Source: Dickeya undicola (GTDB lineage: Bacteria > Pseudomonadota > Gammaproteobacteria > Enterobacterales > Enterobacteriaceae). Taken from it: a stretch of 39,173 nucleotides of DNA. Under the pieces are notes generated by a model. That model saw only the letters and a list, made by a program, of their open reading frames with translations, was not told the DNA's origin and searched no databases. The position numbers were made by a program, and so were the translations under genes. Location of the stretch: assembly GCF_000784735.1 (NCBI RefSeq), contig NZ_JSYG01000038.1, forward strand, positions 1 through 39,173, in the 5' to 3' direction. Positions 1 to 9,247 of this stretch are shown here, in pieces (position 1 is the first letter of the stretch; every line of letters starts with the position of its first letter).

Positions 1-3000
1 GCAGCACGGTGACGGCGGTGGAGGCACTCAACATCGCCGGCGGCGGCACCCTGAGCAACCGCGAGGGCGGGCTGCTGAGCGCCGACGGCGCGCTGAATCT
101 GGTGGCGCTGGGCAATCTGACCAACAGCAGCGCGACGATACAGGGCAACCGGGTGACGCTGGCGAGCGTCAACGGCGATATCGTCAACACCACCACCAGC
201 AATCAGTGGCAGACGGCGGCGAAGGACGGCCGGGGGCGCGGGTCGCTGACGCGCACCGATATCGGGCAGGCCGGGCTGATAACGGCGCAAAACGGGCTGA
301 CGCTGCAGGCGGGACACGATATCGCGCTGAACGGGGCGCAGCTGAGCGCGGGCGGGCCGCTGCAACTGGCGGCGGGCAACGACATCCGGCTGGCGGCGCT
401 GACCACGGTGACGGACACGGTGAATCAGACGGGCGGGGCCAGCACCGAGCGACGCAGTCAGGGACGGGTGCAGAGTACGCTCGCCAGCGGGGGCGAGCTG
501 AGCCTGAGCGCGGGGCGTGACCTGAGCAGCACGGCGGGGCAGCTGAGCGCGGCGGGGACGCTGGCGCTGTCGGCGGGGCGGGACCTGAGCCTGCTGTCGG
601 CCAGCGAGGAGCAGTTCAGCTCGAACGCGTGGACGCGGCATCTGGACTGGCAGCAGACGGTGACGCAGCAGGGGACGGTGCTGAATGCGGGCGGGGGGCT
701 GAGCCTGCGGGCGGGTCAGGACCTGACGCTCGAGGGGGCGCAGGCGGAAACGCGTGGCGCGCTGACGGCGCAGGCGGGACGGGACCTGAACCTGCTGTCG
801 GCGACGGAGAGCCGGCATGATTTTTTTGAAGAGACGACGGTGAAGAAGGGGTTCCTGTCGAAGACCACCACGCACACGCTGCGGGAAACGGCGCAGACGA
901 CGGAGAAGGGGACTCTGCTGTCGGGGGGCAGCGTGGCGCTGACGGCGGGGCATGATATCGGGGTGCAGGGCTCGGCGGTGGCGGCGGACGGGGACGTGAC
1001 GCTGACGGCGGGGCATGACATCACGACCGCGGCGAGTGTGGAAACCTACCGTAACTACGAGGAGCACAGTCGCAAGAAGAGCGGGGTGTTCAGCGGGGGC
1101 GGCATCGGTTTCACCATCGGCAGCACCTCCCTGAGCCAGAAACTGGACGACAAGGCGACCACCCAGAGCCAGAGCGTCAGCACGCTGGGCAGCACCGGCG
1201 GGTCGGTACGGCTGAATGCCGGGCAGGCTGTGTCGGTGGCGGCCACCGATGTCATTGCGGCCAGGGATATTCAGGTGACGGGCAACAGCGTGACCATTGA
1301 CCCCGGTTATGATACGCACAGCCAGTCCCGTCATACGGTGCAGAAAACGGCGGGATTGACGGTGGCGTTGTCTGGCGTGGTGGGCTCGGCGCTGAACAGC
1401 GCGGTACAGGCACTGCAGGCCGTTCAAAAACAGAGTGATAGCCGTCTGCAGGCGTTGCAGGGGATGAAGGCGGCGCTGTCGGGGTATCAGGCTTATCAGG
1501 GCACTCAGGTTGATACCAACAATAAAGGCGCGTCGTCGTTTGTCGGTATCAGCGTGTCACTGGGGGCGCAGCGCGCCAGCAGCAGCCAGACCAGCGAGCA
1601 ATCGCAGAGTTTTGCTTCGACACTGAACGCGGGCCATGATATCAACGTGGTCGCTCGTCAGGGGGATATCACTGCGGTTGGCAGCCAGTTGAAAGCGGCC
1701 AACAATGTGGAGCTGAATGCTTCCCGGGCGATTAATCTGCTATCGGCGCGCAATACGGAGTCGATGACCGGCAGCAACAGCAGCAGCGGCGGGAATATCG
1801 GCGTCAGCTTTGGGTTGAGCAACGGCGGGGCGGGATTCAGCGTCTTTGCCAATGTCAATGCGGCCAAAGGTCGTGAACTGGGCAATGGCAACAGTTGGTC
1901 AGAAACCACGGTGGATGCCGGGCAGCAGGTTGGCCTGACCAGCGGCGGTGATACGCGCCTGACCGGGGCGCAGGTCAGCGGCGAGCGCATTGTGGCGAAC
2001 GTGGGCGGCGACCTGCTGCTGAAAAGCCAGCAGGACAGCAACCGCTATGACTCGAAGCAGACCAGCGTGTCGGCGGGCGGTAGCTTTACCTTTGGCAGCA
2101 TGACCGGCAGCGGTTATCTGAGCGCCAGTCAGGACAAAATGCACAGCAGCTATGACAGCGTGCAGCAGCAGACCGGATTGTTTGCGGGCAAAGGCGGTTA
2201 CGACATCAGCGTCGGCAATCACACGCAACTGGACGGCGCGGTAATTGGTTCAACCGCCAGTGCGGATAAAAACCGGCTGGATACCGGTACGCTGGGCTTC
2301 AGCAATATCGATAACCGGGCAGAATTTTCGGTGTCGCACAGCGGTATCGGGTTGAGTGCCAGCCCGTCGCTGAGTATGTCGGATATGCTGAAATCGGCAG
2401 CCCTGACCGCGCCTTCGGCGTTGATGTCGATGGGTAACGGCGGCAATGCCAGCAGCACCACCTACGCGGCGGTGAGCGACGGGGCGCTGATTATCCGTAA
2501 TCAGGCCGGTCAGCAGCAGGATATTACCGGTCTGAGCCGGGATGTGGAGCACGCCAACAATGCGCTGAGCCCGATCTTTGACAAGGAAAAAGAGCAGAAG
2601 CGCCTGCAGACGGCGCAGATGGTCGGTGAACTGGGCGCACAAGTGATGGATGTTATCCGCACCGAAGGGGAAATTCGTGCGACGCGGGCGGCAGAAGCCA
2701 GCGGCAAGGTGGATCGCCCGGCGGATAACGCGACCGAAAAAGAGTGGGATAAATACAAAAAAGATCTGACGGAAACGCCGGAATACAAGGCGGTGATGCA
2801 GTCTTACGGCACCGGTAGCGATCTGCAACGGGCAGCGCAGGCGGCAACGGCGGCAATACAGGCGCTGGCAGGAGGGGGAAACCTGCAGCAGGCGCTGGCC
2901 GGTGCCTCGGCACCGTATCTGGCACAGCTGGTCAAAGATGTGACGATGCCGACGGATGAGAAGAAGGCGACAGCATCGGACATTGCGGCCAACGCGATGG

Positions 3001-3953
3001 GACATGCGCTGATGGGTGCGGTGGTGGCGCAACTGTCGGGCAAGGATGCGTTGGCGGGTGCTGTGGGGGCTGCGAGCGGTGAGTTGGCCGCGCGCCTGTT
3101 GATCATGAAGGAGTTGTACCCAGGGCGGGACAGCAGTGACCTGACGGAAGCGGAAAAACAGTCGGTCAGCGCGCTGGCCTCGCTGGCGGCGGGTCTGGCC
3201 TCAGGGATTGCATCGGGTAACACCACCGGTGCGGCGACAGGAGCGCAGGCAGGACGTAATGCGGTGGAGAATAACTTTATGGCTCCACCACCGGCGGCCC
3301 CTGTGGCGGTAGGCGGTGAAGCGGCAGCAGTCGCCGGTGCGGTAGGTCAGGGCGTTCGTCAGGGAAGCGGTAAAGGCGACGGCGAGGAGATGGGGGGAAG
3401 CTGTGAAGGCACCCGCGAGCAGTGCGCGGTGCGCGACGGCACCCGTGGGCCGGGACATACGGAGTTACCGATAGCGGATAACGATCCGACCGGTGGCAAG
3501 CTGGAAAATCCGGCCCCGACAGAGAACACGGCCACCACGCTGACAACGCCGGATCAGTCGGATAATAACGGAGCCAGCCATACCGGAAATACTGATGGTG
3601 CCTCGTCTACTGCCGGAAATACCACCACGACGCCGATCCCGGATGGGCCGAGTCAGGATGATTTGGCGTATTTAGCTGATGGGCACATGTTAGGGGCTAA
3701 TGGAGTTCAGACGTCCAGTAAAACGATATGGAAAGGTGTAGGTAAAGAACGAATAGATGTTGAAAATCCGGCACCAGGACAAAGAGCCGGACAGCTACAT
3801 TATCAAGATAATAAGGATAACAAATATCTTTATGATCCTAAGACGGATTCATTCCCCGATGCACCTAAGTCGGTAAATAATCTATTGAATGATCCATCAT
3901 TTAGAAAGGCTATTAATAAAGGGATGACTCAGTATTTAGGAGAGAAGAAATGA
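1..3953 (+). CDS. cdiA: CdiA/HecA-type contact-dependent inhibition exoprotein, C-terminal 1.3 kb-residue part (5' end outside window)
   Basis: The reading frame is open at the left edge (codons begin at base 3), so the N-terminal secretion domain lies outside the window. About 700 residues of degenerate filamentous-hemagglutinin repeats (AGRDLxLxSA, LTAGHDI) are followed by a Ser/Gly-rich stretch, an alpha-helical Ala-rich pretoxin region and a VENN motif at 3264-3275. In CdiA proteins VENN marks the border between the conserved stalk and the exchangeable toxin (CdiA-CT). Here a Thr/Asn/Ser/Gly linker of roughly 120 residues follows. The last 100 or so residues (from about 3655) are clearly AT-richer and encode a small domain with GQLHYQ, KYLYD and a YLGEKK end. 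I cannot assign its activity; similar small domains end other polymorphic toxins as far as I recall. The family is exported by a CdiB two-partner transporter and kills or arrests neighbouring cells. The stop codon overlaps the next gene, as expected for cdiA-cdiI. Confidence 0.9.
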   Translation, partial: STVTAVEALNIAGGGTLSNREGGLLSADGALNLVALGNLTNSSATIQGNRVTLASVNGDIVNTTTSNQWQTAAKDGRGRGSLTRTDIGQAGLITAQNGLTLQAGHDIALNGAQLSAGGPLQLAAGNDIRLAALTTVTDTVNQTGGASTERRSQGRVQSTLASGGELSLSAGRDLSSTAGQLSAAGTLALSAGRDLSLLSASEEQFSSNAWTRHLDWQQTVTQQGTVLNAGGGLSLRAGQDLTLEGAQAETRGALTAQAGRDLNLLSATESRHDFFEETTVKKGFLSKTTTHTLRETAQTTEKGTLLSGGSVALTAGHDIGVQGSAVAADGDVTLTAGHDITTAASVETYRNYEEHSRKKSGVFSGGGIGFTIGSTSLSQKLDDKATTQSQSVSTLGSTGGSVRLNAGQAVSVAATDVIAARDIQVTGNSVTIDPGYDTHSQSRHTVQKTAGLTVALSGVVGSALNSAVQALQAVQKQSDSRLQALQGMKAALSGYQAYQGTQVDTNNKGASSFVGISVSLGAQRASSSQTSEQSQSFASTLNAGHDINVVARQGDITAVGSQLKAANNVELNASRAINLLSARNTESMTGSNSSSGGNIGVSFGLSNGGAGFSVFANVNAAKGRELGNGNSWSETTVDAGQQVGLTSGGDTRLTGAQVSGERIVANVGGDLLLKSQQDSNRYDSKQTSVSAGGSFTFGSMTGSGYLSASQDKMHSSYDSVQQQTGLFAGKGGYDISVGNHTQLDGAVIGSTASADKNRLDTGTLGFSNIDNRAEFSVSHSGIGLSASPSLSMSDMLKSAALTAPSALMSMGNGGNASSTTYAAVSDGALIIRNQAGQQQDITGLSRDVEHANNALSPIFDKEKEQKRLQTAQMVGELGAQVMDVIRTEGEIRATRAAEASGKVDRPADNATEKEWDKYKKDLTETPEYKAVMQSYGTGSDLQRAAQAATAAIQALAGGGNLQQALAGASAPYLAQLVKDVTMPTDEKKATASDIAANAMGHALMGAVVAQLSGKDALAGAVGAASGELAARLLIMKELYPGRDSSDLTEAEKQSVSALASLAAGLASGIASGNTTGAATGAQAGRNAVENNFMAPPPAAPVAVGGEAAAVAGAVGQGVRQGSGKGDGEEMGGSCEGTREQCAVRDGTRGPGHTELPIADNDPTGGKLENPAPTENTATTLTTPDQSDNNGASHTGNTDGASSTAGNTTTTPIPDGPSQDDLAYLADGHMLGANGVQTSSKTIWKGVGKERIDVENPAPGQRAGQLHYQDNKDNKYLYDPKTDSFPDAPKSVNNLLNDPSFRKAINKGMTQYLGEKK
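3264..3275 (+). other. VENN motif marking the CdiA-CT boundary
   Basis: The residues Val-Glu-Asn-Asn occur in the context NAVENNFM after an Ala/Gly-rich segment rich in small residues. In CdiA proteins of enterobacteria this motif ends the conserved pretoxin domain, and sequence downstream is exchanged between strains. Confidence 0.85.
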
Positions 3954-4387
3954 AATGTAATCAATTGATGAAAAAGGAAATTAAACGTGCCGATTGGAGG
4001 GGGTTATCTCTTCCTGATGATTTGCAGTCATGGATCAATGGTGGTTTTGTAGAAGATGACGGCTGTGTTTTTTTGCGATCTTTATACAAGAATTATAAAG
4101 GGTTAGATAATTTTCCTGACAGGACGGGGGTTGAATGTTTTGTAAACTCTTTCCATATTGACGATTACGTATCTGAGCGGTACTTGGATTACTCCTTTTT
4201 ATTTTGCGAGCAAATATTAGCTTGCTGGAAAAAATACAATCATGCTCAGAAATTAAATGTGATTATTTCTCATGATGAATTTGGTGCAGTAGTTAAGTTC
4301 CATATGAAGCGTCAGGACGAAAATTGGTTAAGTAGTAATCTTGAAGGATATGAAGAAGCAGTTTTGGAAACAAGTGAGCCTATTTAA
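3950..4387 (+). CDS. cdiI: Putative CDI immunity protein (CdiI)
   Basis: This 145-residue protein has no signal peptide or membrane segment and is moderately acidic. Its ATG overlaps the cdiA stop codon (ATGA), implying translational coupling. I do not recognise its fold. The assignment rests on position: in CDI loci the gene immediately behind cdiA encodes a small cytoplasmic protein that binds and neutralises the cognate CdiA-CT. The gene is much AT-richer than the hemagglutinin part upstream, matching the toxin-coding end of cdiA, so toxin and immunity genes look like one transferred unit. It is rich in aromatic residues (several Trp, Tyr and Phe) and has four Cys. A strong terminator follows directly. 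Confidence 0.75.
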   Translation: MKCNQLMKKEIKRADWRGLSLPDDLQSWINGGFVEDDGCVFLRSLYKNYKGLDNFPDRTGVECFVNSFHIDDYVSERYLDYSFLFCEQILACWKKYNHAQKLNVIISHDEFGAVVKFHMKRQDENWLSSNLEGYEEAVLETSEPI

Positions 4388-4391
4388 AGTT

Positions 4392-4430
4392 AAAAACGAT
4401 CCCGGCCTCTGCGCCGGGATCGTCGTTTTT
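4392..4430 (+). terminator. Rho-independent terminator behind cdiI
   Basis: A perfect 10-bp stem (4397-4406 with 4413-4422) with a 6-nt loop is preceded by an A-run and followed within 3 nt by five T. It can act in both directions and so could also end transcription of the symE remnant on the minus strand. Confidence 0.85.
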
Positions 4431-4435
4431 ACCGG

Positions 4436-4705
4436 TCAGATCCTAATCTCCGCCTCAATCACCAGCCGCCCGCGCTCGACGGTGACAATCACCGGCTGGC
4501 CGGTGTTAAAGCCGAGATCTTCCAGCCAGCGGCCCTTCAGCGTGAGTTGCGGCGGCGGGTTGCCCTTCATGCCATTGGGGGCGTAGCCGACGGTGTAATG
4601 CCGTTGGGGTTCTTTTACTTCAGTTGCGCGGGGTTCTGACTTAGAATCGCGTCCAGCCCGTTTAGTTGCTTGTGGTGAGCGGTTGGAGCAGGTTGCCGCC
4701 TGTTC
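4436..4705 (-). pseudogene. SymE-like toxin gene remnant, 5'-truncated
   Basis: The minus-strand frame is open for 89 codons and ends with TGA at 4436. Its C-terminal half is a convincing SymE-family AbrB-like domain: HYTVGYAPN, then LTLKGRWLEDLGFNTGQPV and a VIEAEIRI end. In E. coli SymE is an SOS-induced toxin that affects nucleic acids. The frame is closed by an in-frame TGA (complement of 4706-4708), and no ATG, GTG or TTG exists between that stop and the conserved domain. The only Met lies inside the domain. The intact start therefore seems lost through a frameshift or deletion. The frame overlaps the tail of the XRE remnant in another phase, which suggests an original XRE-symE pair. Confidence 0.7.
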
Positions 4706-4881
4706 TCACCGCGCTCAGTAATCTGTTTAGCCTGGTACTTCAGTATCATCCCATCCAGTAACGCCTTGATTATCTAGCGCTCTTCTTCCGGCATCCCGCT
4801 GACGGCCTCAAACTGCAATGCCAAATCATCAGACGGGCCACGCTCATGGCCATCAAACAACCAGCCTATCCACTGCTCCAT
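4615..4881 (-). pseudogene. XRE-type regulator remnant with in-frame TAG
   Basis: Read on the minus strand from an ATG at 4881, 35 codons end in TAG (complement of 4774-4776). Reading on in the same frame gives a continuous tail of about 50 codons to TAA at 4615. The two parts joined (acidic stretch, MPEEER, then a helical segment with ALLDGMILKYQAKQ) resemble the C-terminal part of small XRE-family regulators of enterobacteria. The N-terminal helix-turn-helix is missing, and a stop lies directly before the ATG. I therefore read it as a truncated gene with an additional nonsense mutation. The family assignment is from memory of similar tails and is moderate. Confidence 0.55.
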
Positions 4882-4963
4882 CTACTGAACCGATTTTTGA
4901 TCCACCGGATGGCAGTAACAGGATTTGCATCAACACCAGAGTTCTTTGCGGAATCAAACCTCA

Positions 4964-4981
4964 TTTTGACATGAGTCAAAA
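4964..4981 (+). promoter_or_regulatory. Perfect palindrome resembling an FNR box, upstream of the pfl-like gene
   Basis: TTTTGAC-ATGA-GTCAAAA is a perfect 7-bp inverted repeat with a 4-nt spacer. FNR sites have the form TTGAT-N4-ATCAA. Each half here differs by one base, and the variant half GTCAA also occurs in the FNR-like site in front of feo in this window. Oxygen control of a glycyl-radical enzyme gene would make sense. No convincing -10 could be placed at the usual distance, so this is a candidate only. Confidence 0.45.
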
Positions 4982-5057
4982 GTACATCTGAAAAAATAGT
5001 GGTTTACAGGATAATTCTTGAATATTGACAAAACAGTGGGATAGTTTCGCCAGTTTT

Positions 5058-5076
5058 TAGACGATCGGTCAATATT
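5058..5076 (+). promoter_or_regulatory. Putative TetR-family operator, copy 1
   Basis: The 19-mer TAGACGATCGGTCAATATT lies 20 bp before the start codon of the pfl-like gene. It matches the element in front of the acuI-like gene in 18 of 19 positions. The core GAC-N5-GTC is an inverted repeat, and TAGAC-GATC-GGTC resembles the NemR-type operator as I remember it. Binding here would block elongation or ribosome access. Confidence 0.65.
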
Positions 5077-5096
5077 AAATTAATAAGGTGACTAGC

Positions 5097-7379
5097 ATGA
5101 AAATTGACTCACAAATGATGTCAGAAGCCTGGAAGGGGTTTGTCGGCGATGTGTGGCAAAACGAAGTCAATGTCCGGGAATTTATTCAACAAAACTATAC
5201 GCCCTATGATGGCGACAGTGCATTTCTCGCTGGTCCAACCGAAGCGACGACACGCTTATGGAGCCAAGTTCTTGAAGGGATAAAACAGGAAAACCGCACG
5301 CACGCACCTGTCGATTTCGATACATCCCTGCCTTCCACCATTACGTCACACGACGCTGGTTATATCGATAAAGCAGTTGAAAAAATTGTCGGTCTTCAGA
5401 CCGAAAAGCCGCTTAAGCGTGGGATTATTGCTTATGGTGGTATTCGCATGGTGAAAAATTCATGTGAAGTTTACGGCAAAGAACTGGATCCGCTGACTGA
5501 GAAAATTTTTACTGATTATCGTAAGACGCATAATCAGGCCTGCTTCGAACTGTATACGCCGGATATCCTTGCCTGTCGTAAATCCGGCGTTATCACCGGA
5601 TTACCTGATGCCTATGGGCGGGGACGTATTATTGGCGATTATCGCCGTATTGCACTGTACGGCCTGGCGTTTCTCATTCAGGACAAACAGGCGCAGTTTG
5701 ATTCCACGCAGACGATGATGGAGAGCGCTGAAGAGCTAACACCAGCACTACGGCTACGCGAGGAGTTGGCAGACCAGATCAAGGCATTGCATGACATTCA
5801 TGAAATGGGGCTGAAATACGGCATTGATATGGCCAACCCAGCGCGTACGGCCCAGGAGGCCATCCAGTTCACATATTTCGGCTACCTTGCTGCTGTTAAA
5901 TCACAAAACGGTGCTGCCATGTCTCTCGGCAGAACATCCACTTTCCTGGACGTTTATATTGAGCGTGACCTATCTGCAGGGCTGATTGACGAACAAGAAG
6001 CTCAGGAGCTCATTGACCATTTCATCATGAAACTGCGAATGGTTCGTTATCTCCGTACCCCTGAATATGACTCACTGTTCTCGGGTGATCCTATCTGGGC
6101 GACGGAAGCTATGGCCGGTATGGGCACTGATGGCCGTACCCTCGTCACGCGTACCACGTTCCGTTATTTGCAGACGTTATACAACATGGGGGCGGCACCG
6201 GAACCAAACCTGACAGTCCTGTGGTCTGAGCAACTTCCTGATGGCTTTAAGCATTTTGTTGCGAAAGTCTCGATTGATACGTCTTCTATTCAGTACGAAA
6301 ACGACGATCTGATGCGCAATGATTTTGGCAATGATGATTATGCTATCGCCTGCTGTGTCAGTCCGCAGATTCTCGGTAAGCATATGCAATTCTTCGGGGC
6401 GAGAGCGAACCTGGCGAAAGCGCTGCTCTATGCGATCAATGGTGGGATTGATGAAAAGTCGGGCGCGCAGGTCGGGCCGAAAACCGAGCCATTAAAGTCA
6501 GATGTGCTCGATTTTAATGATGTGATGGCACGCTATGACCGCATACTTGACTGGCTGGCGACCCAGTACGTTACCGCACTGAATATCATTCATTATTCCC
6601 ACGACCGCTACAGCTATGAGGCCTCTCTGATGGCACTCATGGATCGCGATGTCTACCGTACCATGGCATGTGGCGTGGCGGGGCTTTCGGTGGCAGCGGA
6701 TTCGCTCTCTGCCATCAAATATACCGAGGTTAAACCGATCCGGAACGAAGCAGGGATTGCTGTCGACTTTGAGATCGCCGATAGCTATCCCCAGTTTGGT
6801 AACAACGATCCGCGCGTGGATGATCTGGCCTGCGATCTGGTTGAACGGTTTATGAAGAAAATTCAGCAACACCCGACTTATCGCCATGCCACACCCACTC
6901 AGTCGGTACTGACCATCACTTCAAATGTGGTTTACGGCAAAAAAACGGGTAATACACCAGATGGCCGCCGTACCGGAGCACCTTTTGGTCCGGGGGCGAA
7001 TCCAATGCATGGACGGGATCAGAAAGGCGCTATCGCATCTCTGACGTCAGTGGCTCGTCTGCCCTTTAGTTACGCCAAAGATGGCATTTCCTACACGTTT
7101 TCCATCATCCCTGGGGCGCTGGGTAAAAGTGACGATGTCCGAAGCAAGAACCTGGCAGGATTGCTTGATGGTTACTTCCATCATGAGGATGCCATCGAAG
7201 GAGGCCAGCACCTGAATGTGAATGTCATGAACCGGGAAATGTTGCTTGATGCCATGGAGCATCCTGAAGATTACCCACAACTGACCATCCGCGTTTCGGG
7301 TTATGCCGTCCGTTTTAATTCCCTAACCAGGGAGCAGCAGCAGGATGTCATCACCCGAACCTTCACGGCCTGCCTTTAA
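5097..7379 (+). CDS. Pyruvate formate-lyase-type glycyl radical enzyme (PflB/TdcE paralogue)
   Basis: The 760-residue product has the length of E. coli PflB and closely follows its sequence. It should cleave pyruvate (or 2-ketobutyrate) with CoA to acetyl-CoA (propionyl-CoA) and formate without oxygen. The catalytic Cys pair lies in [11 protein letters not shown] (Cys419-Cys420), and the radical Gly735 in RVSGYAVRF near the C-terminus. I chose the ATG at 5097 over the GTG at 5088 because AAGGTG (5085-5090) is the ribosome binding site and the length then matches the family. No activating radical-SAM enzyme is beside it, so PflA would have to act in trans. The TetR-type operator and an FNR-like palindrome lie upstream. 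Its neighbour acuI carries the same operator, so this looks like a second, conditionally expressed PFL rather than the housekeeping one. PFL and TdcE-type ketobutyrate lyase cannot be told apart here. Confidence 0.92.
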
Positions 7380-7391
7380 GGTGTGAGCGTA

Positions 7392-7432
7392 TAGGATACG
7401 TCCGGCCTGGTGGCAGCCGGGCGTATTCCTCA
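7392..7432 (+). terminator. Hairpin behind the pfl-like gene
   Basis: An 11-bp stem (7396-7406 with 7416-7426, one G-U pair) with a 9-nt loop starts 16 bp after the stop codon. The T-run is poor, so it may be a weak terminator or a 3'-end stabiliser rather than a full stop. Confidence 0.55.
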
Positions 7433-7492
7433 GCATGTTTGAAGACCCGGCATTCCCGAAATGAGTCGTGAGCTCATCATAAATTTATTTAG

Positions 7493-7511
7493 TAGATGAT
7501 CGGTCAATATT
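7493..7511 (+). promoter_or_regulatory. Putative TetR-family operator, copy 2
   Basis: TAGATGATCGGTCAATATT differs from copy 1 (5058-5076) at one base. It lies directly upstream of a possible -10 (TATACT, 7517-7522), overlapping the expected -35 and spacer, which is a standard position for repression. It is 53 bp upstream of the acuI-like start codon. Confidence 0.65.
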
Positions 7512-7564
7512 TTTATTATACTCCCGAATACTGACAGTCATATAACCGGACATACGAGGTAAAA

Positions 7565-8548
7565 GTGTTTAAATCTTTATTAATTAACAAGACAGAAGAT
7601 CGTTACACCGCGCTGTTTGCTGAGATCGCTGAAAGCGAACTGCCTGAGGGGGATGTGACTGTCAATATTGACTACTCATCCATCAATTATAAAGATGCCC
7701 TGGCTATCACCGGGCGTGGCCCGATCGTCCGTCATTTTCCGATGGTGCCGGGCATCGATTTTGCCGGTACTGTTTCCGATAGCTCGCATCCGGCCTATCA
7801 GGCTGGTGATAAAGTCCTTCTGACCGGTTGGGGTGTTGGGGAAAAACACTGGGGCGGGCTGTCCGGAAAAGCTCGGGTGAAGGGGGACTGGCTGACGCCC
7901 CTCCCGGCAAGCGCAAGCAGCAAACACGTTATGGCGATCGGGACTGCTGGTTTTACCGCGATGCTATGTGTCGACGCGTTGCTGAAACATGGTGTGAAGC
8001 CTGAGGATGGCCCGGTACTGGTTACTGGTGCCAGCGGAGGCGTCGGCAGTATTGCCGCCATGATCCTTGCATCCATGGGCTACCACGTGACCGCATCGAC
8101 CGGTAGGCCGGAAGAAGCCGCGTGGCTTTATAAAACGGTCGGGGTGAACGACATTATTAATCGTGCCGAACTCTCTAGCCCCGGAAAACCGTTACAGAAA
8201 GAACGTTGGGCCGCTGCAATTGATACTGTGGGCAGCCATACGCTCTGCAATGCCTGCGCCGGGGTTCGCTATGGCAGTATTGTTGCGGCCTGCGGGATGG
8301 CACAAGGTATGGAACTGATGGGCAATGTGGCCCCGTTCATCCTGCGTGGTGTCACGCTGAAGGGGATCGACAGTGTCATGTTCGCGAAAGAGAAAAGAGC
8401 AGCGATTTGGCAACAGGCGTTACAGTATTTACCGGAGTCCAGACTGGATGGTCTGACCACCGTCTACCCGCTCAGTGAGGCCATCAATGTAGCCGAAAAA
8501 CTCCTGAATGGCGAAATTCGGGGTCGGGCAGTAATTCAATGTCGTTAA
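7565..8548 (+). CDS. acuI: Acryloyl-CoA reductase, NADPH-dependent (AcuI/YhdH family)
   Basis: The 327-residue product is a zinc-independent medium-chain reductase/dehydrogenase close to E. coli YhdH. Shared blocks are SSINYKDALAITG, a PGIDFAGTV segment, TGWGVGEKHWGGL and the nucleotide-binding VTGASGGVGS (residues 153-162). Members reduce the toxic electrophile acryloyl-CoA to propionyl-CoA and protect against acrylate. Translation starts at a GTG with GAGGT (7556-7560) four bases before it; no ATG start fits. A TetR-type operator lies upstream, and a terminator separates it from the convergent tetR gene. Its own operator and the hairpin behind pfl suggest an independent transcript that is co-regulated with the pfl-like gene. 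Confidence 0.9.
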   Translation: MFKSLLINKTEDRYTALFAEIAESELPEGDVTVNIDYSSINYKDALAITGRGPIVRHFPMVPGIDFAGTVSDSSHPAYQAGDKVLLTGWGVGEKHWGGLSGKARVKGDWLTPLPASASSKHVMAIGTAGFTAMLCVDALLKHGVKPEDGPVLVTGASGGVGSIAAMILASMGYHVTASTGRPEEAAWLYKTVGVNDIINRAELSSPGKPLQKERWAAAIDTVGSHTLCNACAGVRYGSIVAACGMAQGMELMGNVAPFILRGVTLKGIDSVMFAKEKRAAIWQQALQYLPESRLDGLTTVYPLSEAINVAEKLLNGEIRGRAVIQCR

Positions 8549-8558
8549 TTAAAAGGAT

Positions 8559-8580
8559 GCCAGGCTCAGCCTGGCTTTTC
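8559..8580 (+). terminator. Terminator between acuI and the convergent tetR gene
   Basis: GCCAGGC (8559-8565) pairs with GCCTGGC (8569-8575) around a 3-nt loop, followed by TTTTC. It sits 10 bp behind the acuI stop and just before the tetR stop on the other strand. Confidence 0.75.
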
Positions 8581-8590
8581 TTAGCACCCT

Positions 8591-9247
8591 TTACTGTTTA
8601 GTTATCGCTTCTTGCGACGGCTTATAGTGCACCGAAGCTTTGAAATAGCTCCAGAAATCGTACACGGGTTGGGTCGAACAATAAAGTTTGGCACGCATTA
8701 CGGCACCTTCCCAGCCACTCCAGAAAATAGCCGCTAGTTGCTTATCATTCATCTCTGAGCATATTTCGCGCGAAGATAGAGCATCGGAAAGACAGGCCGC
8801 AACAAGTGCCTGCCATCTCTCAAGAATATCCTGTAGCTGTTTAATAAATGATGGCGGAAGTCCCGGAGTCTCTTGCATCATATTTCCGACCAGACAGCCC
8901 CGGGTGAAATTGTACTTTTTAATACCGTTGCAGGCATCATTGATAAAATGTTCCAGACGTACCATTGGTGCGTTGGATGGTACATGCAGATGCTTTTTGA
9001 GTTTATGCTCGAAGAAAGTGTCATAGGCATTCAGAACAGTCTGCGCATATTCCTCTTTACTCTTGAAGTAATAATAAAATGAGCCTTTAGGGACACCGGC
9101 ATTTTTGACAATGGCATCGACTCCCGTCGAAAGAAAACCATTTTGCGTCAACAGTTCAAGTCCGCTGCGGATCAAGTCATCACGGGTATCTGCATACGAA
9201 CTTTCTGTTTTTCGTGGTCTTCCCCGTCCGCGCGTTTCGCCAGTCAT
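8591..9247 (-). CDS. acuR: TetR-family repressor, AcuR/NemR-like
   Basis: The 218-residue product has a short basic N-terminus (RGRGRPRK) and a TetR helix-turn-helix at about residues 25-70 with the typical VPKGSFYYYFKSKEEY segment. A ligand-binding domain follows. Cys118 in TRGCLVGN sits where I recall NemR carrying its electrophile-sensing Cys106 (SGCL). AcuR of Rhodobacter controls acuI and responds to acrylate; NemR responds to reactive electrophiles. The gene is convergent with the acuI-like gene and is the obvious candidate to bind the two matching 19-mers. I see no copy of the 19-mer upstream of this gene, so autorepression by that site is not supported. The symbol is by analogy only. 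Confidence 0.82.
   Translation of the reverse strand: MTGETRGRGRPRKTESSYADTRDDLIRSGLELLTQNGFLSTGVDAIVKNAGVPKGSFYYYFKSKEEYAQTVLNAYDTFFEHKLKKHLHVPSNAPMVRLEHFINDACNGIKKYNFTRGCLVGNMMQETPGLPPSFIKQLQDILERWQALVAACLSDALSSREICSEMNDKQLAAIFWSGWEGAVMRAKLYCSTQPVYDFWSYFKASVHYKPSQEAITKQ

Follow-up and report, generated by a model that had tools for sequence, protein, structure and literature searches.

A second pyruvate formate-lyase gene and acuI behind two copies of one predicted AcuR-type operator in Dickeya undicola

The 39,173-nucleotide contig NZ_JSYG01000038.1 of Dickeya undicola (hereafter the window; contig C32 of a 4.35 Mb genome) carries a second pyruvate formate-lyase (PFL) gene, here called pfl2, followed by acuI, the gene of acrylyl-CoA reductase, and by acuR, the gene of a TetR-family repressor. 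One 19-mer stands upstream of both pfl2 and acuI; its most plausible identity is that of the Enterobacteriaceae AcuR operator, and comparative sequence makes co-regulation of the two genes highly probable. As for function, we favour, with moderate confidence, that Pfl2 is an acrylate-induced PFL, serving as a replacement for the housekeeping enzyme PflB or as a tolerant isozyme of it. The parts of this system are known, whereas their combination, and a second regulatory wiring of related PFLs in Vibrionaceae, appear to be new. A preliminary description, made from the letters of this DNA, had called the combination undescribed; in the open-licence literature we likewise found no description of AcuR with pflB, or of acrylate, pyruvate formate-lyase and AcuI together.

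pfl2 (positions 5097..7379, + strand) encodes a complete glycyl-radical PFL of 760 aa; its start is taken as the ATG at 5097, and the list of open reading frames (ORFs) begins it at GTG 5088. acuI (7565..8548, + strand) encodes an acrylyl-CoA reductase (NADPH) of 327 aa, and acuR (8591..9247, − strand), which is convergent with acuI as previously stated, encodes a protein of 218 aa. The three proteins singled out in the preliminary description all pass curated family cut-offs: TIGR01255 for Pfl2 (1257.6 bits, cut-off 994.2), the equivalog NF051456 for AcuI (486.0, cut-off 440, residues 2-326) and the equivalog NF051457 for AcuR (261.4, cut-off 247). The TetR protein does contain the Cys118 in GCLV context that was pointed out there, and it is 81-88% identical to AcuR of other genera whose loci share the operator. 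The kinship with NemR suggested at the same time was not borne out; no NemR model is present among the 15 families listed for the protein, and this identity was rejected.

The pattern TAGAYGATCGGTCAATATT is present twice in the window, as TAGACGATCGGTCAATATT at 5058..5076 (copy 1, + strand), ending 20 nt before the pfl2 ATG, and as TAGATGATCGGTCAATATT at 7493..7511 (copy 2, + strand), ending 53 nt before the acuI GTG (7565). The pair was noticed in the preliminary description and is real: the copies are identical at 18 of 19 positions. With three or fewer mismatches allowed, 0.03 matches are expected by chance in the window. When the 120 nt upstream of each gene are compared, the best shared 19-mer agrees at 18/19 positions; 60 dinucleotide-shuffled pairs never exceeded 15. 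Coincidence is thus improbable as the origin of the paired sites. A search of the whole genome, one of the checks proposed at the outset, matched the pattern exactly at these two sites only; a third site (contig C26, three mismatches) lies inside long ORFs, in one case right at the beginning of the ORF. GrcA and the canonical pflB were considered as further operator targets in this genome and rejected, there being no site with three or fewer mismatches beside either.

Among 84,980 species genomes, 14 stretches match the pattern exactly. Eleven of them are 5′ of acuI, in Siccibacter, Huaxiibacter, Pectobacterium, two Enterobacter, Escherichia, Superficieibacter, Citrobacter, Atlantibacter, Pseudocitrobacter and Leclercia; the other three, in Geomonas, Allomuricauda and Polaromonas, lie without any of the genes. 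No PFL was found in the retrieved DNA around the 11 acuI-preceding stretches. With one mismatch allowed, 15 of 391 genomes of the family carry a site, 16 sites in total: two in the window, 11 before acuI, one before acuR, one before the PFL gene of genome G184 (see below), and one, L111, that is unexplained and has none of the genes nearby. Sites 5′ of acuI or acuR therefore make up 12 of the 14 outside the window; the species and family scans overlap in some genomes, and their counts are not additive. The reversed pattern gave no hit among the matches listed for the 391 genomes. In three loci that were opened and aligned, two plasmids (exact) and an E. coli chromosome (one mismatch), the site is also 5′ of acuI.

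According to PMC3017554, the AcuR operator of Rhodobacter sphaeroides is TAATAGAC/n6/GTCTATTA and overlaps the promoter, and the hexamers TTGATT and TATTAT are named there for R. sphaeroides acuR. The enterobacterial site, TAGAC-GATCG-GTC with a 5-nt spacer, conforms to an inverted repeat TAGAC-N-GTCTA 5′ of acuI or acuR, with the right arm (GTCAA) imperfect. TAGAC-N5-GTCTA is found before acuR or between acuR and acuI in five loci (L158-L162), and TTGATT-N17-TATTAT, with the hexamers of R. sphaeroides, flanks the operator in several enterobacterial acuI promoters. The acuR-acuI-dddL locus of R. sphaeroides is alike in its TetR-type AcuR, its AcuI and its inverted-repeat operator over the promoter; the window differs in its convergent acuR, the degenerate right arm and a PFL gene as second target. 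Taken together, the comparative sequence strongly supports the earlier proposal that an AcuR-type repressor controls PFL and AcuI in common, and we infer that AcuR binds both sites.

A promoter block that other genera have 5′ of acuI occupies 5008..5057 (+ strand), here 5′ of pfl2: in blastn against L036-L051, window 5008/5015-5077 matches DNA directly 5′ of acuI in other genera at 78-82%. A sigma-70 scan near the block gave a single scored site (4988-5015), and the region as a whole has two such sites against a shuffle mean of 6.8, fewer than in the shuffles. In Pectobacterium sp. CFBP8739 (L038), positions 7063-7261 align with window 4878-5076 (90%) and positions 7235-8000 with window 7485-8250 (86%). 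Because the two alignments meet inside the operator, pfl2 and one operator can be seen as a 2,435-bp unit (5077..7511, + strand) that lies between operator direct repeats and is not in the matching acuI promoter of L038. The arrangement would be accounted for if the unit had been gained through recombination at the operator, or if CFBP8739 had lost it exactly. Other acuI loci also have the operator without pfl2.

A search for the gene neighbourhood in other genera, also suggested in the preliminary description, showed that operator, PFL and acuR recur in G184. Its pfl2 is 91.7% identical to that of the window; acuR (−) is divergent from pfl2 (+), and the operator (L050 8221-8239) ends 19 nt before the pfl2 ATG (8259). 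Comparison of the window and G184 gave a ratio of nonsynonymous to synonymous substitution rates (dN/dS) of 0.033 for pfl2 at a dS of 1.35, indicating strong purifying selection, and of 0.09 for acuR at a dS of 1.59. Owing to the low dN/dS at high dS, both genes look like old, maintained genes in this sequence comparison. These values bear on the possibility that a horizontally acquired PFL gene merely recombined at the operator by chance, with no specific role in acrylate stress. Such a capture would agree with the direct repeats that flank the unit, its absence from the matching site in CFBP8739 and its rarity; however, the operator-PFL pair recurs in another genus, in another arrangement and at the divergence and constraint just given, and the sister clade of Pfl2 has a different box in common with acuI and ard. 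We consider chance capture very unlikely.

In G184, pfl2 is followed by the gene of a 1,004-aa Ard-like protein (Oxidored_FMN, FMN_bind, FAD_binding_2) and then by ApbE. The NADH-dependent acrylate reductase Ard in Vibrio harveyi has this architecture, with the same domain order (OYE, FMN_bind, FAD_binding_2) and a neighbouring ApbE; the G184 gene differs in that pfl2 and an AcuR-type operator precede it. Within G184, the closest relative of AcuI shares 48% identity. G320, a genome of another family, has acuR, acuI, Ard (76%) and ApbE (54%) one after another and carries TAGAC-N5-GTCTA sites in the acuR-acuI interval; an AcuR locus can therefore include Ard but no pfl2. By eye, the acuR-pfl2-Ard-ApbE cassette of G184 is located between two transposase-like ORFs (L050 4340-5710 and 15293-16825). 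A full-length Ard-like protein (60%) was also seen on a 386-kb Staphylococcus epidermidis plasmid (NZ_CP121525.1), together with PflB and PflA.

The Dickeya genome also encodes PflB, 77% identical to Pfl2, and a GrcA-like glycyl-radical domain protein. PflB and Pfl2 fall under the same family model, are both full length and agree in all catalytic residues. Pfl2 retains R176, A272, A273, F327, W333, C418, C419, F432, R435, L604 and G734, among them the C418-C419 pair and the glycyl radical residue G734 expected of a PFL. Unlike PflB, it belongs to a separate clade and has a promoter of its own, equipped with an AcuR-type operator. A tree built from 29 proteins joins Pfl2 first to the G184 copy (100/100) and then to six Vibrionaceae-type paralogues (100/99; 77-80% identical to Pfl2), apart from PflB and TdcE. 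Judged from this tree, Pfl2 is a paralogue of the host PflB from another clade, sister to the Vibrionaceae paralogue. In the plasmid collection, the Pfl2 protein query found no PFL at 80% identity or more among 102 records with a PFL; the best one (78.6%) is from Vibrio sp. THAF190c, in which the Pfl2-like PFL and an 85% Ard are on one plasmid, far apart.

For the residue comparison, 29 clade rows (Pfl2 and its Vibrionaceae relatives) were set against 41 others; five Vibrionaceae loci were doubled among the 48 comparison rows, and one copy of each was removed beforehand. Seventeen of the 29 clade rows are partial, and positions beyond ~465 rest on 12 rows. Among the differences that separate the clade, and Pfl2 from PflB, A or V replaces G at 147, mostly C replaces V at 148, A replaces R/N at 158, F/Y replaces W at 257, Q replaces M at 423 (28 rows), which sits four residues after C419, and M replaces H at 514 (12 rows). 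At position 428, the 24 clade rows long enough to include it have H or D, and 40 of the 41 others have Q. We take the region ~145-161 and residue 514 to be near the CoA site.

PFL reactions are reversible in principle, and Pfl2 could be conceived of as a TdcE-like 2-oxobutyrate/propionyl-CoA enzyme that handles the propionyl-CoA made by AcuI, as the preliminary description had offered for 2-ketobutyrate. Pfl2 lies outside the TdcE branch, however, and its gene has acuI and acuR beside it in place of a tdc operon. All 29 clade rows share with E. coli PflB an Ala at residue 272, where E. coli TdcE, one of three Gly rows among the 41 non-clade rows, has Gly. Although propionyl-CoA is indeed the product of AcuI (PMC4029986), the tree and Ala272 make this alternative less likely than it had seemed; we set the TdcE reading aside as highly unlikely.

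The Vibrionaceae paralogues gave independent information. AcuR, AcuI, Ard and ApbE adjoin the PFL paralogue in none of six loci, and these missing neighbours first looked like evidence against a link, until the upstream DNA was compared. TTCATTTTACTCAT or a near form of it is present 5′ of six of six Pfl2-like genes and four of four Ard genes compared; in the 164,316 bases searched, two further hits have one mismatch. It belongs to a box, defined here as ATGC-N7-GCAT-N17-TTCATTTTACTCA, that precedes the Pfl2-clade PFL, acuI and ard; unlike the site before pfl2 in the window, it is no AcuR operator. The extended form, ATGC-N7-GCAT-N17-TNCANTTTACTCA, was found with up to two mismatches in 168 of 296 genomes of the family, taken as Vibrionaceae from its named Vibrio records, and its reversed control in 12 genomes, counted from rows. 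In the best 30 loci returned from the 296 genomes, which are no random sample, the first gene downstream encodes PFL in 17, AcuI in eight and another product or none in five; the 17 PFLs group in the Vibrionaceae branch next to Pfl2, in a tree in which the long TdcE and outgroup branches meet. Three genomes (G896, G914 and G959), selected for their three listed sites apiece, carry one box 5′ of each of the Pfl2-clade PFL, Ard-ApbE and AcuI, and G882, with two listed sites, has one 5′ of PFL and one 5′ of Ard. A tally of 52 sites (27 PFL, 12 AcuI, eight Ard, five other) includes loci retrieved because they contained PFL or Ard. A co-occurrence count preceded the box and is superseded by it: Ard was present in two of five genomes with the paralogue and in none of 28 without, among 33 f21 genomes with a PFL match (Fisher p ~0.02, by hand).

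Both Vibrionaceae AcuI proteins tested pass NF051456, and in both loci tested for it (G862 and G959) a LysR-domain gene converges on acuI; a LysR-type protein probably reads the box. Two different regulatory sequences thus appear to join this PFL group with acuI, and partly with Ard. Since the box shared by the sister-clade PFL and acuI in Vibrionaceae is a different one, common control of PFL and AcuI seems to have arisen at least twice. As side observations, a variant of the box with two mismatches lies 5′ of an MFS-like protein (by eye) in L178 and L192, a possible further regulon member, and a box-like sequence, also with two mismatches, recurs in several genomes of genus g256.

Published work offers a reason for such a link. 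Acrylate irreversibly inhibits activated E. coli PFL; it alkylates C418 in a radical-dependent manner, and at 200 mM acrylate the inactivation is essentially complete in less than 20 s (PMC10591478). PFL has been called hyper-sensitive to acrylyl-CoA, and acrylate is more toxic to anaerobic E. coli (PMC4029986, there citing Kandasamy 2013 and Arya 2013). AcuI detoxifies, yielding propionyl-CoA, and acrylate derived from dimethylsulfoniopropionate (DMSP) is made in quantity in the sea (both PMC4029986). AcuR repression is relieved by acrylate (PMC3017554, for R. sphaeroides; PMC4029986). If PFL loss is the damage, an acrylate-released repressor over a reductase and a PFL would be expected.

We propose that pfl2, acuI and acuR may form a three-gene acrylate-response unit, in which AcuR would repress acuI and pfl2 through two copies of one operator and acrylate, its published co-inducer, would release both together. 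AcuI would then remove acrylyl-CoA, while Pfl2 would keep anaerobic pyruvate cleavage running as PflB is alkylated at its catalytic cysteine, either by simple resupply or because it is less easily poisoned. The idea of target replacement had been put forward in the preliminary description; published PFL inactivation by acrylate, sensitivity to acrylyl-CoA and the Vibrionaceae link now stand behind it, and the enzyme itself may be tolerant. A more specific version can be advanced only tentatively, and we would put it at rather less than an even chance: the clade would consist of acrylate-response PFLs, altered near the substrate cysteines and possibly at the CoA site (147, 148, 158, 423 and 514), that resist acrylate or acrylyl-CoA and were wired twice, in Vibrionaceae by way of a LysR-type box and in Enterobacteriaceae by way of AcuR operators.

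The link to Ard also invites a metabolic explanation in which PflB is undamaged. Acrylate would serve as an anaerobic electron sink (through AcuI, and Ard where present) and the extra PFL would provide flux: the sink would free NAD+, and more pyruvate would pass via PFL to acetyl-CoA, acetate and ATP. In G184, Pfl2 has an OYE/FMN_bind/FAD_binding_2 reductase and ApbE beside it; in Vibrionaceae, such a reductase and the Pfl2 clade have a promoter box in common; and the catalytic residues of Pfl2 are all as in ordinary PFL. However, the unit in the window has no Ard nearby, detoxification is what AcuI is known for (PMC4029986), and flux alone needs no separate PFL clade with clade-specific residues. 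We regard metabolic coupling as rather unlikely, though it deserves more weight than the two alternatives above.

Several observations weigh against an acrylate-induced replacement or tolerant PFL under AcuR. The cysteines attacked by acrylate are kept in Pfl2. No PFL activase is among the neighbouring genes identified, and no search aimed at the host PflA was made; with none among those neighbours, Pfl2 would rely on host PflA. The operator spacer is 5 nt here and 6 in R. sphaeroides, and no such site was found 5′ of acuR in the window or in three aligned related loci. The association is rare: a PFL lies within ~1.5 kb of AcuR in one of 25 other loci of the family and in none of the 29 loci of the order examined, which were drawn from 73 other genomes with an AcuR match. 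Neither pfl2 nor acuR was found in the other eight genomes of the genus, so the pfl2-acuR unit is accessory, and the copies of the window and G184 could stem from one capture event that spread horizontally. In Vibrionaceae, the downstream genes were looked at for a minority of the sites (30 loci and 12).

PFL occupies a central place in anaerobic metabolism and is a published target of acrylate. If a PFL does belong to acrylate regulons under two different regulators, PFL poisoning would be damage that cells in anoxic, acrylate-rich places actually must repair, and Pfl2 and PflB would provide a natural isozyme pair for testing how PFL can avoid suicide inactivation.

In the plasmid search, 112 records match, 110 of them at 80-90% identity, and the 40 of the 112 matches listed cover the acuI-acuR end only; 106 of the 112 matching plasmid records are predicted to be conjugative, and the L003 plasmid carrying acuI-acuR is typed IncHI2A. 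Part of the locus is matched in 661 of 5,426 E. coli genomes, in none over more than 80% of the query; the 30 of the 661 matches listed correspond to the acuI-acuR end, mostly acuR and part of acuI. In L036 (Siccibacter) and L115, the operator is intact, yet only the first 36 codons of the acuI that follows it match, as if the gene were broken or replaced.

Among the genes identified in the window, none encodes a DMSP lyase. A terminator-like hairpin is located between the convergent acuI and acuR (8559..8575, both strands) as a consensus match only; the region has seven such matches against a shuffle mean of 5.2. Upstream of the promoter block, positions 3-3953 (+) encode the C-terminal part of a protein of the contact-dependent inhibition type, which resembles filamentous haemagglutinin and has a PT-VENN pre-toxin domain. 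It is followed by a small ORF (3950-4387, +) in the place of an immunity gene, and positions 4391-4658 share 92.6% identity with a region annotated as cdiI on a plasmid from Pantoea dispersa.

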